A stretch of DNA of 8,612 nucleotides from Planctomycetota bacterium. GTDB lineage: Bacteria > Planctomycetota > PUPC01 > JACPCR01. Shown here one piece after another: positions 2,826 to 8,592 of this stretch. Numbering within the stretch: the first letter of the stretch is position 1; each line of letters begins with the position of its first letter. The position numbers were made by a program, and so were the translations under genes. The notes below the pieces were generated by a model that did not search any database, was not told the DNA's origin, and saw nothing but the letters and a program-made list of their open reading frames with translations. The stretch lies in NCBI GenBank assembly GCA_030740295.1, contig JASLXP010000744.1, forward strand, positions 1 through 8,612. Direction: 5' to 3'.

Positions 2826-3941
2826 CTATTTCTCTGCCATCGCCTTCCTGAACGCGGCGAGATCAGATCCCCGAAGAGCCGTCTCATCGGCTTTGAGGAC
2901 TCCGATGTTGTACTCATCGGGAATGGTGGGTTCGGGGACCTTGATTACCGGTGCGAGCACCGGCCGGAGACCCACATACGGATATGGCATCCCCGGCATA
3001 AGGTGCCCACGTGAAGCCGACCGCACATAGCGTCGCCACTCTTTCGGTTCGGTATGGACTCGGCCCTTCGGGCTGGGGTCTTCGTAGAATCCGTCAAAGC
3101 CACCGCGGACGACTTTGGACTTCCCGTCAGTGAGCACTGCCGGGTCCGTCGCTTCGAGGCCTTTGTACGGGGCGTAATCGTCGAGCACCCATTCCAGCAT
3201 GCCCATGTGCATATCCATCAAACCAAACTTGTTGGCAATGCCGCCCTCGTTGAAAATCCGCTCGCTTCTGTCGGCTTTGCCCGCGATGACCTCGGCTTGC
3301 CTAGCCCCGATGGCATCGACCTTCTTCTCGACCTGCCCGTCATTGAACGCTCCGGTCGTCCCTGCCCGGCATGCGTATTCCCACTCGGCCTCTGTGGGAA
3401 GGCGATACTCATAGCCTTTGGGCAGACGTCCGGCCGCTCGTTCACGTGCGGTGAGTTTCTCACAGAACTCAACAGCATACTTCCAGGACACACCGTCCAT
3501 CGCCTTCGCCGTCAGCCGGCCCGTGTGCACATCGGGCCCTTCGAGACTATACGGACCATGCTGGTGCAACTCGGGAAGCGAGAAACTCCAGGCGCCCTTG
3601 CGATAGAAGATCGGCTTGTAGTCCGACCTCATCATCGGGACATACTGGTTCTGCTTGATCTCGTGTTTCGCCATGTAGAACGGCTTAGAGATCGTGATGG
3701 CGCGCTCGGTTTCATCCTCGCCACGGCCGACCTCGCCTTTGGGACTGCCCATGGTGAACTTCCCGGCAGGGATCTTGACCATTTCGATCGCATCCGGCAG
3801 GGCGAATTCCCTGGCCTGCATGGAGACGATCTGCCCCGGATCGGGTAAGTCAGGATTCTTCTCCGATCGCACCTCGGCGAGAAGCGTAACACTCACGGCA
3901 ACAGCGGCGACAAAACTGATAGTCAGATATTTATATTTCAT
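2826..3941 (-). CDS. Secreted SUMF1/FGE-sulfatase-domain protein without the FGE cysteine pair
   Basis: This 371-residue protein begins with a signal peptide (MKYKYLTISFVAAVAVSVTLLA). It contains a SUMF1 fold from ~50 to 330: MVKIPAGKFTMGSP at 54-67, DGVSWKYAVEFCEKLT at 149-164, RLPTEAEWEYACRAGT at 180-195, NKFGLMDMHMGMLEWVLDDY at 237-256, VVRGG at 277-281 and GLRPV at 324-328. Formylglycine-generating enzymes need a C-x4-C pair near the C-terminus. Here the only cysteines are C160 and C191, and the usual RGGSW is RGGFD, so sulfatase activation is unlikely; a binding or scaffold role, common among secreted SUMF1-domain proteins, is inferred. A ~40-residue tail follows the domain. ATG 3941 is only 11 bases after the upstream stop, and its ribosome site AAGGAAG (3947-3953) shares a base with that TAA, so the two genes are almost surely co-transcribed. 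A longer in-frame start at 4052 would remove the signal peptide from the N-terminus and overlap the upstream gene, so it was not chosen. Confidence 0.85.
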   Translation of the reverse strand: MKYKYLTISFVAAVAVSVTLLAEVRSEKNPDLPDPGQIVSMQAREFALPDAIEMVKIPAGKFTMGSPKGEVGRGEDETERAITISKPFYMAKHEIKQNQYVPMMRSDYKPIFYRKGAWSFSLPELHQHGPYSLEGPDVHTGRLTAKAMDGVSWKYAVEFCEKLTARERAAGRLPKGYEYRLPTEAEWEYACRAGTTGAFNDGQVEKKVDAIGARQAEVIAGKADRSERIFNEGGIANKFGLMDMHMGMLEWVLDDYAPYKGLEATDPAVLTDGKSKVVRGGFDGFYEDPSPKGRVHTEPKEWRRYVRSASRGHLMPGMPYPYVGLRPVLAPVIKVPEPTIPDEYNIGVLKADETALRGSDLAAFRKAMAEK

Positions 3942-3946
3942 GGTGG

Positions 3947-3953
3947 CTTCCTT
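3947..3953 (-). promoter_or_regulatory. Ribosome binding site overlapping the upstream stop codon
   Basis: AAGGAAG on the minus strand begins at the last base of the TAA of the giant gene and lies 5 bases before ATG 3941. It decides the start of the SUMF1-like gene and ties its translation to termination of the upstream gene. Confidence 0.7.
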
Positions 3954-6900
3954 TACTTGTACATCCACGGCTTCATTCGTTTGAGATAATGCTGCATGAC
4001 CGGCTGGGCCATCGCTTTTTTGTTGCTTTCGTAGCGCGCGCGTCCATCCCAATCGACGGTGGTCGGCCAGGGCAGGCTTTGCAGCTTCTTCGCTGTCTCG
4101 AGTTGCGCGATATCATCCGGAACATGGGGCGTATGCCCATCCAGGATCCTCTTTGAGACCGTCGCAAGCTGTCCTGACCAGCCACTCTTACGCAATAGCT
4201 GTGCTTCCAACGCGTTGGTCTCGGCCATTGCCGCTCCCTTGGCCTTTCCGATTTCACGACGGGGGATGTCGTGGATATCCCGATCGATCCTTTTCCTTTC
4301 TGCATCGAGTTCCGGATCCGGCTTGTAGTGCATCTGCCTTCCCAGGCGATGGTTCTCCTCGTTCAACTTCCGATGCTCTGCCGTTTCGCGGGTGGCTCTT
4401 CGCAGTTGTTCCGAGCGCTCCCGCGCCTTTTGCCGCTGGCGTTCCAGTTCACGTGCTCCGGCAAGCCGAGAGTGGCGCCGGTTGATTATTTCATTCCTCG
4501 CCCTGTACATCTTGTGGTGCAGTTCATCATTCAGCTTCCGGCGTTCGCTACTGTGGTGCGGGGCCGCGTCGACCTTCTTCCGCTGTTCCTCGATACGTTC
4601 TTCCAGCGCGATGTACTTTGGATCTTTCTTCAGCTCCGCCTCAGCGGTTTTTCGCAGCTCATTGTGCTGGCGATTCAATACATGCTCCGCTGCACTCGCT
4701 TCCTTGTAGCCAGGATAGCTCTCCTGTATCTCGCGCAGCTTCTTCTGGACTTCCTGCTGCTTCGGCCTCAATTCTGCGACGAGCTTTTGATACGCCTCGT
4801 CGTTCTTACGGGCTTCGTTAATCTCTCGGTAGATTTCGTCCCTCCGGTCTTTGAGAGCTTCGACTGCGTCATTGATTTCGTTAATGCGTTCGGCGGCGGA
4901 CGCACTCAGCTCTTCTTTCCGCTTGCCGACCGCAGCAGCGTACTTGTCGTAGTAAGCCGTTAGCGGATGCTCCTTGGCCAGGTTGCCCGAAAACTCTTTC
5001 CTCTTCGCCTCATAGTCGGTGTCGATGTACTTCTTCTTGAATCGTTCATACACTTTCGGACCAATACGACGCGAGTTGACCAGCGGGACCTCGACCTTGC
5101 TGAAATCCTCGTACACCTCGGTTAAGACCCGGAGATAATCCACCGCACCGGCCATCGGGGAGATTCCACCGAAACCTGCCGCCATCGTAGCCATCCGCAC
5201 TTTGCCCGGCGCGAATGCATCGGACGCGCGGAAGCCGGTCTTGATTTCGGCGACGTTCTTTCCGTCCTGGAACAGTCTCATCGTCTTGCCGTCCAGTTCC
5301 GCCCTGACGACGGTCCACGCACCGCGAATCACCTTGCCGCCCCGACATTCGGCCTGCACGTCACCCGCGTTGCCCGCGATCACTAGCTGACCACCGGCGA
5401 CCGACAGAGACAAGCGGTTCTGTTCGTCATTACCGAACATCCACAACGTTTGCTGTTTGTCCGAATCGACCTTGAGCCGCATATCGACTGTGATGATTTC
5501 CAGGTCGGCCATCTCGCCGGGCATCTCCGCCCACTGGCCCTTGGCGTTGAACGTCAAAGCGCCCTGTTCCGCACCGTCATACGTGAACCCGGGATTGCCG
5601 ATGAGTACGCCGTCGAAGAAGATACGGTCATCGCGATGCGATCCGTAGATTGTCCCCGACCGCTCGTTGTAGTGGTCTTCCAAGAGCACAGCTTCGGGTT
5701 GGAAACACTCGTAGTTCGCCTGGAAGGCGGCAGTGCCGGTGAGTGGACCGAGCCTTCTTTGCGGTGCGTCGGTATCGTCCTCGGGGTTGACCTTCTGGGC
5801 GGACGACTTGTTCTCGTTACGGATATACAAACGGGCGTTTCCGCTGTGGAGGCCTTTCTCGATGGCAAGCTTCCCGAAGGCACGGGCGTTGTCCTTAAAC
5901 ACCACATCGCCGTAGGCAATGACGTAATCGTCAATCACCGCGTTATCCAACACCTTGGCCTTGTCCAACACCATCGCGTGGGGCCCCACGTAGGCGGTCG
6001 CCGCGACTTGGGCGCTGTCCGCGACCCAGCCGCCGCCATTGGGATGACGCTTGCCCCTGGAATTCCTGAGATGCCATTGGGCGTTCTCATGGTCGTCCAG
6101 CCCGGCCAGTGCCTCTTCCAACTGCTTGCATTGTTCGGGGTCGGTCACGGGAATCGCCGCAGAGAGGAGTCCTTCCCCGTCGTAACGTTGAACGCGACGT
6201 CCGGCGAAGATTCCTGCCTGGTTGACAACATCATCTTCAAACAGCGTGGTGTGCGGCGTGCCCGCGCGACAACCCGATAGCGTGACGTCATACGGATAGC
6301 GATACCCGAATCCGCCCTGGTACACCACGTGGGTGTCGTAACGGCGTATCAGGTCGCTCGCAGGGCTCAATGCCGTTGGCGTAGCGGTTACCGACAGCCA
6401 GTACCGCCGATCACCCGGCTGGACCTTGATGCTCATCTTGCCCTTGTTCCACAGGGGCGAGTAGCGACACTTGCCTTCGCTATCGACGGCTACAATGCAG
6501 GCCCGCCAATCACTGAACGTCTCAGGATCGTAATGGCCGGCAAAATCGACCGTCAGCTCCGCGGCTCCCTTGTCGGCGATGAGCCGGACCAGGTTTACGC
6601 CAAACGCTTCGGGGGCGAACTTTGGATCACTCCGGTACCGTCGCTTCTCACGGTCGAGCTCGACCAGTGAAACGCGATTCGGCATGCAGAAATGTGCGCG
6701 GAGACCCATCTGTATTTCGTTATCGAACTCGGCGAAGCGTGCGCCGACCTGCGCGAGCAAATCGCCCGTTTCGCGGATGCCGTCCTTGAACAGGCCGCGT
6801 TTCTCGCCCACGCGAGCGATGATGTGCATCGGCGTGGCTTCGTTGTCCGACATCAATTGCACGATTGCGAAGGAGAAGGCATATCCCCAGTTGGGGTCAT

Positions 6901-8101
6901 CGCCGATGACCGACCAGGCATACGCACCCGGGTACCATCCCCAGAACAGGTTCTTCCACGGCTTGATCACCTGGAACATGCACTTAACTACCCTCGCCGG
7001 CTCGCCAATGAGCTGCCCGGAGTCGCACAGCGTCTCACCGCCACCGAGGCCACCTGTTCCCCGAATCCCGTGTCCCCATTCGTGGAACAACGCATGCCAG
7101 GATCCATCCCCGCCACTGCTGGCGCCATAGCCGCCTCCGGCGCCGCGACCCAGGGTCTTTCCATCTTTCTTCGTCCCGCCGACAATCAGGCGGTATTTGT
7201 ACTTCGGCTTTTCCGGCGGATGCTCCCAGAAGAACATCAGGTGGCCACTGTGTTCCAGGTATGCCCACCAATCCTCCCATCCTCGCATGATGAGTTTCCG
7301 TCGACGCTCGGCGCCCTTCTTGTCGTCCCAGTTCAGCCAGCGCGAGCCGCCACCGTCATCCGGCGGTTCACTGCCCAGCGTTGCGGTAAAATGCTTGCTG
7401 CTGATGTGCGTGGTCCCCGGAGTGTAGAGCGGGTTGTCGGAAAGTGATTCGTTTATGTTGTGGGCCGCGGGGATTCGCTCGATCCCTTCCTCGAAGGTGT
7501 TGTCGCGAAGGACCTTCATCTGTTTTTCGTAGAGCTTGGTGATGTACAGTTCATCTTCGTCGCTGAAACTGCCGCGTGTGAAGCAGCGCTTGCGACCATC
7601 GGGCAAGCGCAGCACAACGGCGGGTGCGAACGGTTTTTCGAGGTCATCGCCCCACGGGTCGTTGATAGCGCCAAGTCCGCGGAAGCCCAGCAGGTGCGCT
7701 TTGAATTGTTTCTTGCCGCGCAGTGAGAGGGGCCACCACCGAGCCGACTTCCGATCCATCTTTTTCCGTCCCGTATCGTCCAACTGACTGATGACTCGTG
7801 CGGCGGCCGTCATACTCTCGGGACGGATCGTCCAGGTGCGGGGCTTACTTTTGGGTTCCTCGATGTAGTCGACGCCCTTCTTGGGCCACCATTGCACGAC
7901 GCGAAGCTGATAGCCTTCGCCGGGCGTCTGTTTGATCACATCACGCGAGACGTCGTCGCGCAGTGCACCTCGCAACTTGATCCGCTCGAAGAGTGGCGCC
8001 TTCCTGGCCAGCTTCTTGTCGATCTTCGATTCGCCCACGATTGCGCCCTGGGCAACCAAGCCCACAAGGGTCGCCATCAAGATCAAGCGTTGACAACTCA
8101 T
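3953..8101 (-). CDS. Giant secreted Svx/AvrXca-like (DUF6055) putative zinc metallopeptidase with beta-helix, LamG and coiled-coil tail
   Basis: The product has 1382 residues from ATG 8101. Residues 1-23 are a signal peptide. Residues ~225-470 resemble the Svx/AvrXca catalytic region: NPLYTPGTTHISSKHF (223-238), then HEWGHG at 340-345, an HExxH zinc motif (H340, E341, H344) with E356 or E367 as possible third ligand. A beta-rich region follows (~495-690). Nine consecutive hexapeptides start at V693 (VADSAQ VAATAY VGPHAM ...), typical of a left-handed beta-helix and preceded by HPNGGGW as in Svx relatives. A LamG-like module spans ~820-995. Residues ~1005-1345 are Lys/Glu/Arg-rich and strongly helical, probably coiled coil, ending with SLPWPTTVDWDGR and an aromatic/basic C-terminus. 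AAGGA (8107-8111) with 5-base spacing selects ATG 8101 over an in-frame ATG at 8176, which would bury the signal peptide. It is first in the operon, 11 bases before the SUMF1-like gene. The role, cleavage of an extracellular protein or glycoprotein, is inferred from the family; family assignment needs a profile search. Confidence 0.75.
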   Translation of the reverse strand: MSCQRLILMATLVGLVAQGAIVGESKIDKKLARKAPLFERIKLRGALRDDVSRDVIKQTPGEGYQLRVVQWWPKKGVDYIEEPKSKPRTWTIRPESMTAAARVISQLDDTGRKKMDRKSARWWPLSLRGKKQFKAHLLGFRGLGAINDPWGDDLEKPFAPAVVLRLPDGRKRCFTRGSFSDEDELYITKLYEKQMKVLRDNTFEEGIERIPAAHNINESLSDNPLYTPGTTHISSKHFTATLGSEPPDDGGGSRWLNWDDKKGAERRRKLIMRGWEDWWAYLEHSGHLMFFWEHPPEKPKYKYRLIVGGTKKDGKTLGRGAGGGYGASSGGDGSWHALFHEWGHGIRGTGGLGGGETLCDSGQLIGEPARVVKCMFQVIKPWKNLFWGWYPGAYAWSVIGDDPNWGYAFSFAIVQLMSDNEATPMHIIARVGEKRGLFKDGIRETGDLLAQVGARFAEFDNEIQMGLRAHFCMPNRVSLVELDREKRRYRSDPKFAPEAFGVNLVRLIADKGAAELTVDFAGHYDPETFSDWRACIVAVDSEGKCRYSPLWNKGKMSIKVQPGDRRYWLSVTATPTALSPASDLIRRYDTHVVYQGGFGYRYPYDVTLSGCRAGTPHTTLFEDDVVNQAGIFAGRRVQRYDGEGLLSAAIPVTDPEQCKQLEEALAGLDDHENAQWHLRNSRGKRHPNGGGWVADSAQVAATAYVGPHAMVLDKAKVLDNAVIDDYVIAYGDVVFKDNARAFGKLAIEKGLHSGNARLYIRNENKSSAQKVNPEDDTDAPQRRLGPLTGTAAFQANYECFQPEAVLLEDHYNERSGTIYGSHRDDRIFFDGVLIGNPGFTYDGAEQGALTFNAKGQWAEMPGEMADLEIITVDMRLKVDSDKQQTLWMFGNDEQNRLSLSVAGGQLVIAGNAGDVQAECRGGKVIRGAWTVVRAELDGKTMRLFQDGKNVAEIKTGFRASDAFAPGKVRMATMAAGFGGISPMAGAVDYLRVLTEVYEDFSKVEVPLVNSRRIGPKVYERFKKKYIDTDYEAKRKEFSGNLAKEHPLTAYYDKYAAAVGKRKEELSASAAERINEINDAVEALKDRRDEIYREINEARKNDEAYQKLVAELRPKQQEVQKKLREIQESYPGYKEASAAEHVLNRQHNELRKTAEAELKKDPKYIALEERIEEQRKKVDAAPHHSSERRKLNDELHHKMYRARNEIINRRHSRLAGARELERQRQKARERSEQLRRATRETAEHRKLNEENHRLGRQMHYKPDPELDAERKRIDRDIHDIPRREIGKAKGAAMAETNALEAQLLRKSGWSGQLATVSKRILDGHTPHVPDDIAQLETAKKLQSLPWPTTVDWDGRARYESNKKAMAQPVMQHYLKRMKPWMYK

Positions 8102-8204
8102 GCTTTTCCTTTCGGAAAGAGGAAATATCCGCGAGCCCAAAATCTCGCAGCCATCAAAGGTACTTCCGCACGACACGATTAGCGGTTACCAAATCGGGAA
8201 GAAC
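8102..8204 (-). promoter_or_regulatory. Leader between the repeat array and the first gene; promoter expected but not seen
   Basis: This is the only unique non-coding stretch upstream of the first gene, so the operon promoter or 5' leader should lie here or in the repeats. I see no convincing -35/-10 pair. The segment around 8178-8195 (AGCGGTTACCAAA on the plus strand) has a vague resemblance to one half of a LacI-family operator, too weak to call. Confidence 0.3.
8107..8111 (-). promoter_or_regulatory. Ribosome binding site of the giant peptidase gene
   Basis: AAGGA within an AAAGGAAAA tract lies 5 bases before ATG 8101 and identifies this ATG, which opens directly onto the signal peptide, as the start. 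Confidence 0.7.
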
Positions 8205-8320
8205 GACCCCTGTGGGCTTGCCCCACAGGTGAAGGAGGTTGAACAGTTAGAAGCGGGCGAGATTGTCCAAAGACCCCCGTGAACTCGCCTCACGGGTGAA
8301 TCAGGTTGAAAGGTTAGCTC
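8205..8320 (-). repeat. Two minus-oriented copies of the ~67-68-bp hairpin repeat
   Basis: Two diverged units begin at 8205 and 8272, 67 bases apart. Each contains, in minus-strand order, a TTCAACC-x4-TTCACC-like flank, an 8-bp hairpin with a 5-base loop and GGGGTC. Copy A pairs CCTGTGGG (8209-8216) with CCCACAGG (8222-8229), a perfect stem with loop CTTGC on the plus strand (GCAAG on the minus). Copy B pairs 8276-8283 with 8289-8296; on the minus strand this is CCCGTGAG/TTCACGGG with loop GCGAG and one G-U pair. Flanks match the plus-oriented copies to the right, while the stems differ in sequence and keep pairing. Confidence 0.8.
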
Positions 8321-8356
8321 AGGAGCCAGGGAGGAAACCATTCAACCTGATTCACC
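8295..8356. repeat. 21-bp inverted repeat at the junction of the two array halves
   Basis: The arm at 8295-8315 is the reverse complement of 8336-8356 with a single A/A mismatch (16 pairs, mismatch, 4 pairs) around a 20-base loop. It arises because the last minus-oriented copy and the first plus-oriented copy face each other, and it could form a large hairpin or cruciform. No T-tract follows. Confidence 0.8.
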
Positions 8357-8592
8357 TGCCAGGCAAGCTGGCAAGGGGTCTTTCCATTTCATTCTCCCCT
8401 TCTAACCATTCAACCTGATTCACCTGCCAGGCAAGCTGGCAAGGGGTCTTTCTGTTTCATTCTCCCCTTCTAACCATTCAACCTGATTCACCTGCCAGGC
8501 AAGCTGGCAAGGGGTCTTTCCGTTTCATTCTCCCCTTCTAACCATTCAACCTGATTCACCTGCCAGGCAAGCTGGCAAGGGGTCTTTCTGTC
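8336..8592 (+). repeat. Four plus-oriented tandem copies of the 68-bp hairpin repeat
   Basis: Units start at 8336, 8404, 8472 and 8540, exactly 68 bases apart; the fourth loses similarity after about 50 bases. Units are nearly identical, differing mainly where TTTCC-A/G-TTTC alternates with TTTCTGTTTC. Each holds the stem TGCCAG-GCAAG-CTGGCA (first copy 8357-8373), extendable to CC/GG across a bulged A, flanked by TTCAACCTGATTCACC and GGGGTCTTT. All frames are broken by stops and the period is not a multiple of three, so the array is not coding. Confidence 0.9.

Follow-up and report, generated by a model that had tools for sequence, protein, structure and literature searches.

A cluster of REP-like hairpin repeats in a Planctomycetota contig and a fused double-Y1 transposase associated with such repeats

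The hairpin array

The stretch of DNA analysed here, which we call the window, comprises positions 1 to 8,612 of contig JASLXP010000744.1 of a Planctomycetota bacterium. At its end lie six copies of a hairpin unit, two on the minus strand followed by four in tandem on the plus strand, and it is this repeat, together with a gene for a fused double-Y1 transposase with which it is associated in other genomes, that we describe. Each copy reads TTCAACCTNNTTCACC, a 6-bp stem, the loop GCRAG, the second stem arm and GGGGTC. Copy coordinates run from TTCAACC to GGGGTC. On the minus strand, copy A (8205..8243; TTCAACCTCCTTCACC, stem TGTGGG, loop GCAAG, CCCACA, GGGGTC; TAAC at 8246-8249) and copy B (8272..8310; TTCAACCTGATTCACC, stem CGTGAG, loop GCGAG, TTCACG, GGGGTC; TAAC at 8313-8316) are 67 bp apart. 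The plus-strand copies C1 (8341..8380), C2 (8409..8448), C3 (8477..8516) and C4 (8545..8584) form a four-unit tandem array (8336..8591, plus strand) whose period is exactly 68 bp. All four have the stem TGCCAG/CTGGCA, the arms of which are at 8425-8430 and 8436-8441 in C2, around the loop GCAAG; C3 and C4 have the same stem and loop as C2. TAAC precedes C2, C3 and C4 at 8403-8406, 8471-8474 and 8539-8542, and C1 has AAAC instead of TARC at 8335-8338. Counted as 68-nt units from position 8337, successive units differ at 2, 1 and 16 positions, and the last extends beyond the array. A covariance model of the repeat (R1) scores copy A at 64 bits and each of the other five at 64.7 bits.

The window therefore holds three stem versions, TGCCAG/CTGGCA four times and TGTGGG/CCCACA and CGTGAG/TTCACG once each, with all pairs intact except one G.T in copy B. 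The original prediction had described six copies of a ~68-bp unit with fixed flanks and three stem versions in which both arms change together. The coordinates and the covariation among 12 copies bear this out, and the flanks, loop and stems are as it gave them; the period is exactly 68 bp only in the plus copies, and these carry an additional A between the stem arm and GGGGTC that was not part of the description.

Pairing and covariation

In an alignment of 12 copies, six of the eight stem pairs have changed on both sides, and 98.9% of paired cells can pair, a share that falls to 22-50% if the partner is shifted by 1-3 columns. A larger alignment of 63 rows, from which five duplicate L060 rows were removed and in which one duplicate (L091) was kept, gave 486 counted pairs: 471 Watson-Crick, 3 G.T, 7 A.C and 5 other. 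Single-sequence DNA folding of three copies was only moderately better than that of shuffled sequences (z of -1.03, -1.83 and -2.85); the case for the hairpin rests on the comparative evidence.

The original prediction had taken a G-U pair in one copy as a weak hint that the folded molecule is RNA. If a transcript in the TTCACC-stem-GGGGTC sense were under selection, G.T pairs should outnumber A.C pairs. The reverse was found (3 versus 7), so that wobble pairs are more frequent on the opposite strand, although the cases are few, and Rfam covariance models gave no matches at the gathering score. Neither the pair types nor the Rfam comparison thus offers support for reading the repeats as RNA.

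Distribution of the repeat

A strict pattern derived from the window copies (23 fixed bases and one purine) was run on a collection of 84,980 species and matched 7 loci in three genomes, two metagenome-assembled genomes labelled Planctomycetota and one uncultured Verrucomicrobia; the repeat is therefore not a chance arrangement. Further stems were present at these loci (ATCCGG/CCGGAT, ATCCAG/CTGGAT, TGCCGC/GCGGCA and CGCGAC/GTCGCG). These three genomes yielded 12, 24 and 10 matches to the covariance model. Matches occurred in 5 of 294 genomes from the phylum of G001 (Planctomycetota) and in 19 of 288 from that of G003 (Verrucomicrobia). All these counts are lower bounds, since the copies behind the model had been picked by the pattern and stricter filters were applied in the large scans. 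The search of relatives that the original prediction had suggested thus yielded additional copies with stem pairing preserved. With at least 1-24 matches per positive genome, the elements are REP-like (repetitive extragenic palindromic) in the broad sense of short hairpins in many copies, arranged in pairs or clusters.

Spacing and anatomy of the unit

Comparison of the copies shows that the unit of the window's lineage consists of TARC, a 16-nt tail ending in a TTCA foot, a CC/GG base, six stem pairs that vary freely with compensation, the loop GCRAG, GGGGTC and about 22 nt of free sequence. Among 43 sources, neighbouring copies on one strand and separated by less than 150 bp formed 17 pairs, in the window and in four genomes of Planctomycetota, and in all 17 the spacing was 65-69 bp; three of these pairs come from the window's near-identical plus copies, and most of the others have unrelated spacers. 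In 32 of 60 copies TARC, which is TAAC in the window and TAGC in G001, begins exactly 20 nt ahead of the hairpin's CC base. By source, this was the case for 5/6 copies in the window, 12/12 in G001, 5/5 in G064, 8/18 in G002, 2/9 in G117, 0/9 in G003 and 0/1 in G135. For the window, G001, G064 and G002 together, a grouping chosen after the data were seen, the count is 30/41, the second-best offset reaching 3. In its fixed place ahead of the hairpin, TARC resembles the target tetranucleotide of the IS200/IS605 family.

Relatives with other tails were inspected by eye for TAG 18-20 nt before the hairpin, which was found in 4/4 copies at L112, 4/4 at L115, 3/3 at L113, 2/2 at L114 (as TAGG) and 1/4 at L096; at G117:C452 it precedes 3/4 copies. 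Spacing in such relatives was 64-78 bp (seven pairs). The copies in G003, which is labelled Verrucomicrobia, mostly retain only ACCTGATTCACC of the tail through GGGGTC, with no TARC. They (L006, L052, L053, L084-L087) include head-to-head pairs 47-48 bp apart.

No GT[AG]G adjoins the CC base in any of the 5' flanks listed in the 63-row alignment, most of which read TTCA, and the opposite strand reads mostly GACCCC. CGTC was not seen at the hairpin end in 12 copies read by eye. At G064:C6 the arrays differ across one gene (L073, 2044-2153 and 3003-3180): one has the loop CAAG with a TTCA foot, the other the loop GTGAA with a mostly TCCA foot.

A fused double-Y1 transposase

Y1_Tnp genes were found in all three pattern-positive genomes; a Y1-type transposase is what the original prediction had proposed to look for. 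The repeat-associated protein is a fusion of about 265-300 aa, in which both halves have the Y1 fold according to sequence, a confident AlphaFold model (less confident for the N-half) and fold searches. The N-half carries Tyr-x3-Gln without HUH, and the C-half carries HUH without that tyrosine motif. In 84 homologues, Y119 and Q123 of the N-half and H210 and H212 of the C-half (P0016 numbering) are invariant. In 33 sequences, the usual place of HUH in the N-half is occupied by YFQ, HVQ, LQI or similar, and the C-half stops shortly after WxxxxYxGTFxEYD, without Y-x3-Q/NP. The AlphaFold model places a short helix (258-271) of lower confidence at the end of the C-half. Y249 is invariant and Y256 nearly so; alignment to single Y1 proteins puts both ahead of the place of the catalytic tyrosine, and a catalytic role for either is possible.

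When a hidden Markov model (HMM) of the N-half was compared with 1213 open reading frames, it matched the single-domain Y1 proteins of L103 (6.9e-8), L108 (1.1e-6), L110 (2e-6) and L101 (1.8e-5), a comparison that was not blind since these loci had been fetched using the full alignment. L041, fetched by Pfam alone, gave 2.1e-4. In the HMM alignment the HUH of the single-domain proteins lies opposite the empty site of the N-half, and their YI..Q lies opposite Y119..Q123. If each half of a fusion had retained one part of the site, a chain would form one such site, and HUH and Tyr-x3-Gln would each be invariant yet present once, as seen. The conservation of these residues suggests that the N-half tyrosine may lie beside the C-half HUH in a composite active site.

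Homologous proteins form 1086 clusters at E<=0.001, some share of them single-domain. At E<=1e-10 the fused protein occurs in 20 of 288 genomes in the phylum of G003. At L121, L122, L126 and L134 the fused genes have an internal stop or a broken middle and are perhaps decayed.

Repeats flanking the transposase gene

The Y1 gene at G001:C512 has three minus-strand copies on one side, the innermost overlapping the 3' end of the gene, and two plus-strand copies on the other. Its relatives at G064:C6 (53% identity) and G117:C452 (36%) also have repeats on both sides, and many such proteins bear the source annotation 'REP element-mobilizing transposase RayT'. Further relatives at G438:C289, G438:C88, G507:C41 and, more remotely, G002:C233 are flanked on both sides by hairpin repeats of their own, mostly with a GCRAG-like loop; at G484:C25, near a contig end, repeats are visible on one side. 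Of 20 fused loci fetched from the phylum of G003, 10 are bracketed by R1 repeats (E<=0.05), and at 7 of these 10 the closest repeats point inward. Hairpins flanking a Y1 or RAYT (REP-associated tyrosine transposase) gene, the arrangement that defines a REPtron, are thus found in other genomes. For the window's own genome we infer a fused RAYT, since the tail of its repeats is nearly identical to that in G001.

The repeat family at G002:C233 is a second one (L054 720-1880; L096 1225-2310), with tail CGTGAANNTCC, stem ACTGG/CCAGT, loop GCRAG and GGCATC. The protein there is a remote fused Y1 of 306 aa in which the C-half still has a tyrosine (KYIQDW).

Repeats and fused gene co-occur above chance. 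In the phylum of G003, 9 genomes of 288 have both, with 20 having the gene and 19 the repeats (Fisher p 3e-7; p 2e-7 with the seed genome G003 left out). In the phylum of G001, the gene is present in 4 of 5 repeat genomes and no other genome was counted at E<=1e-20 (p 2e-8). Without G001 and G002, both of which had been found via the repeat, it is present in 2 of the 3 repeat-bearing genomes, out of 292 in all (p 7e-5). The gene list for this phylum comes from a draw of 392 genomes and the repeat list from one of 294, assumed to be nested as handles recur. These tests treat genomes as independent and ignore kinship.

Comparison with known systems

REPs and RAYTs are already known, also from Planctomycetes and Verrucomicrobia, and GTAG-less structures beside Y1 genes have been described (PMC6006769, PMC3733652). 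Like canonical REPs and REPtrons, the present elements are short palindromic hairpins, clustered and flanking an HUH/Y1 tnpA-REP (RAYT) gene. Unlike them, they have no GT[AG]G foot, their stems vary freely with compensation, and the RAYT is a double-Y1 fusion; in the window's lineage there are also the 20-nt 5' tail beginning with TARC and the 65-69 bp period.

Class 1 proteins carry their tyrosine in the signature Y-x3-Q, and HUH serves as the metal site (PMC6006769); the subclass table of that paper holds no protein with a tyrosine motif before HUH. The class 1 (IS200) pattern, HUH and Y-x3-Q in one domain of ~150 aa, does not describe the fused protein, where the two are split between halves, and none of the 33 sequences shows the TnpA-REP class 2 order of HUH followed by Y-x3-NP in the same domain. 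TnpAY1 class 3 (Planctomycetes, Acidobacteria, Proteobacteria), which is partly from Planctomycetes, and subclass 2.6 share with the present system GT[AG]G-less REP-like structures beside Y1 genes (PMC6006769). Class 3 proteins have a median length of 178 aa, NHVH, YV..EQ and a CnGA foot, whereas here the protein is ~265-300 aa with Y..Q ahead of HUH in another domain, and the foot is mostly TTCA; the two are set apart by the motifs published in PMC6006769. The transposases of IS200/IS605 elements (IS608 and ISDra2 TnpA) share the Y1 fold seen in both halves, Tyr-x3-Gln, HUH and hairpins adjoining the gene, but here there are two domains per chain with a single HUH and a single Tyr-x3-Gln in total, and the gene is flanked by repeat arrays. 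TIRYT genes in TIRtrons with GGGGWSAS (PMC3733652) are likewise Y1 genes flanked by GTAG-less repeats, and the repeat end GGGGTC is similar; here, however, variable bases follow GGGGTC, and PMC6006769 assigns 20 of 26 TIRYTs to subclass 2.1, which has a helix-turn-helix-like domain at the C-terminus. No description of a fused, split-site Y1 protein was found in the open papers searched.

Interpretation and alternatives

We believe, with a probability of roughly 75%, that the window holds a cluster of REP-like hairpin elements, acting as single-stranded DNA, and that elements of this kind are, or once were, spread by a fused Y1 transposase. A mobilised REP/BIME-like repeat (BIME, bacterial interspersed mosaic element) was among the possibilities raised by the original prediction, beside a structured RNA and a protein-binding array, and it is supported by the compensated copies in other genomes, their head-to-head and tandem clusters and their position around a Y1 gene. 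That prediction did not anticipate that a GTAG foot is lacking, that one phylum shows TARC and a constant spacing, or that the transposase is a fusion with a split site. The fused protein would bind single-stranded DNA where it folds into the hairpin, recognising foot, loop and shape, and its two halves would build one composite active site; stems could drift if the enzyme reads pairing instead of stem sequence. It might then cut beside TARC and copy or move the unit. If units of the window's lineage inserted beside the TARC of a copy already present, head-to-tail arrays with a constant period of 67-68 bp would result, by analogy with IS608, which inserts 3' of TTAC and in which tyrosine and HUH of a site come from different subunits, in trans (PMC5934647). 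The cutting, the role of TARC as target and the growth of arrays are suggested by this analogy.

More tentatively, and at somewhat less than even odds, we propose that some HUH transposases form a class in which a homodimer acting in trans became, by duplication and fusion, one chain with one working site, to which one half contributes HUH and the other the tyrosine. Such enzymes would spread hairpins with a lineage-specific tail and free stems, and in the window's lineage units of 67-68 nt would insert beside a resident TARC so that regular arrays grow.

Several observations weigh against spread by the fused protein, or against its generality, and some of them favour other explanations. Around fused genes in the second phylum (loci L117-L134 were examined for both traits), TARC was seen at a distance of 17-21 nt for 8 of 37 copies, none of them outside L126 and L129; a spacing of 65-69 bp was seen for 5 of 15 neighbour pairs, none of them outside L126, and the spacings overall range over 37-71 bp. 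Since both mostly fail there, the period and TARC are traits of one lineage and not of the whole class, and our confidence is a little lower for it. In some genomes with repeats the fused gene was not found, G003 among them. The inconstant spacing and these genomes would suit inert relics whose transposase has since been lost, the 68-bp period of C1-C4 having arisen by slippage or unequal recombination instead of transposition; that the units C1 to C3 differ by just 1-2 bases, as after recent tandem duplication, points the same way. Slippage does not explain, however, the 65-69 bp spacing that copies with unrelated spacers and different stems keep both in the window and in four genomes of Planctomycetota, and we regard the relics as an unlikely explanation, if one with some weight. 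A further point is that each half of the fused protein lacks part of the standard Y1 site. It could then be a domesticated binding protein without catalysis, with the repeats as its binding sites, and TnpAREP is termed a domesticated transposase in PMC8266576. A protein that only binds would have no need of the single HUH and single Tyr-x3-Gln that are kept invariant here, and we consider this explanation improbable.

Conservation for RNA function, as a structured element or leader motif of the downstream operon, would also produce compensatory stem changes, and the minus copies do lie ~100 nt upstream of the ATG of a 1407-codon frame. Against it, copies are found on both strands, in clusters and in varied sequence surroundings, and they flank a transposase gene; given also the pair types, which show no strand bias in its favour, and the lack of an Rfam match, we think it very improbable. 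Regular spacing with variable spacers in one lineage might recall the clustered repeats of another system, CRISPR-like or integron attC-like, but both orientations occur inside one cluster, stems differ between its units and the recurrent neighbour is a Y1 transposase gene, which, though no search for cas or integrase genes was run, leaves this explanation with almost no credibility.

Spread by a fused transposase bears on how REPs spread and how RAYTs differ mechanistically from their IS200/IS605 relatives. With a natural single chain whose HUH and tyrosine motif sit in separate halves, one could ask cleanly if a single composite site is enough to cut and join. The fixed TARC and constant unit length of the window's lineage predict a cut site and the unit ends. 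The family, with 20 of 288 genomes in one phylum and its many homologous clusters, is broad enough for comparative work.

Genes beside the array

Three frames in the window lie on the minus strand: a URO-D-like frame (1535-2701), an FGE-sulfatase-domain frame (2826-4052) and a DUF6055/Laminin_G_3 frame (3953-8176). The gene in the last of these (3953..8101, with ATG 8101 taken from the sequence) is the neighbour of the array, lying outside it and downstream of the minus-strand copies. Of 7 genomes searched with the URO-D-like protein, 4 gave matches, of only 23-33% identity. Positions 8057-8073, at the start of the 1407-codon frame, and 8204-8220, at copy A, form an inverted match of 17 nt (94%), and the two could pair within one minus-strand transcript.
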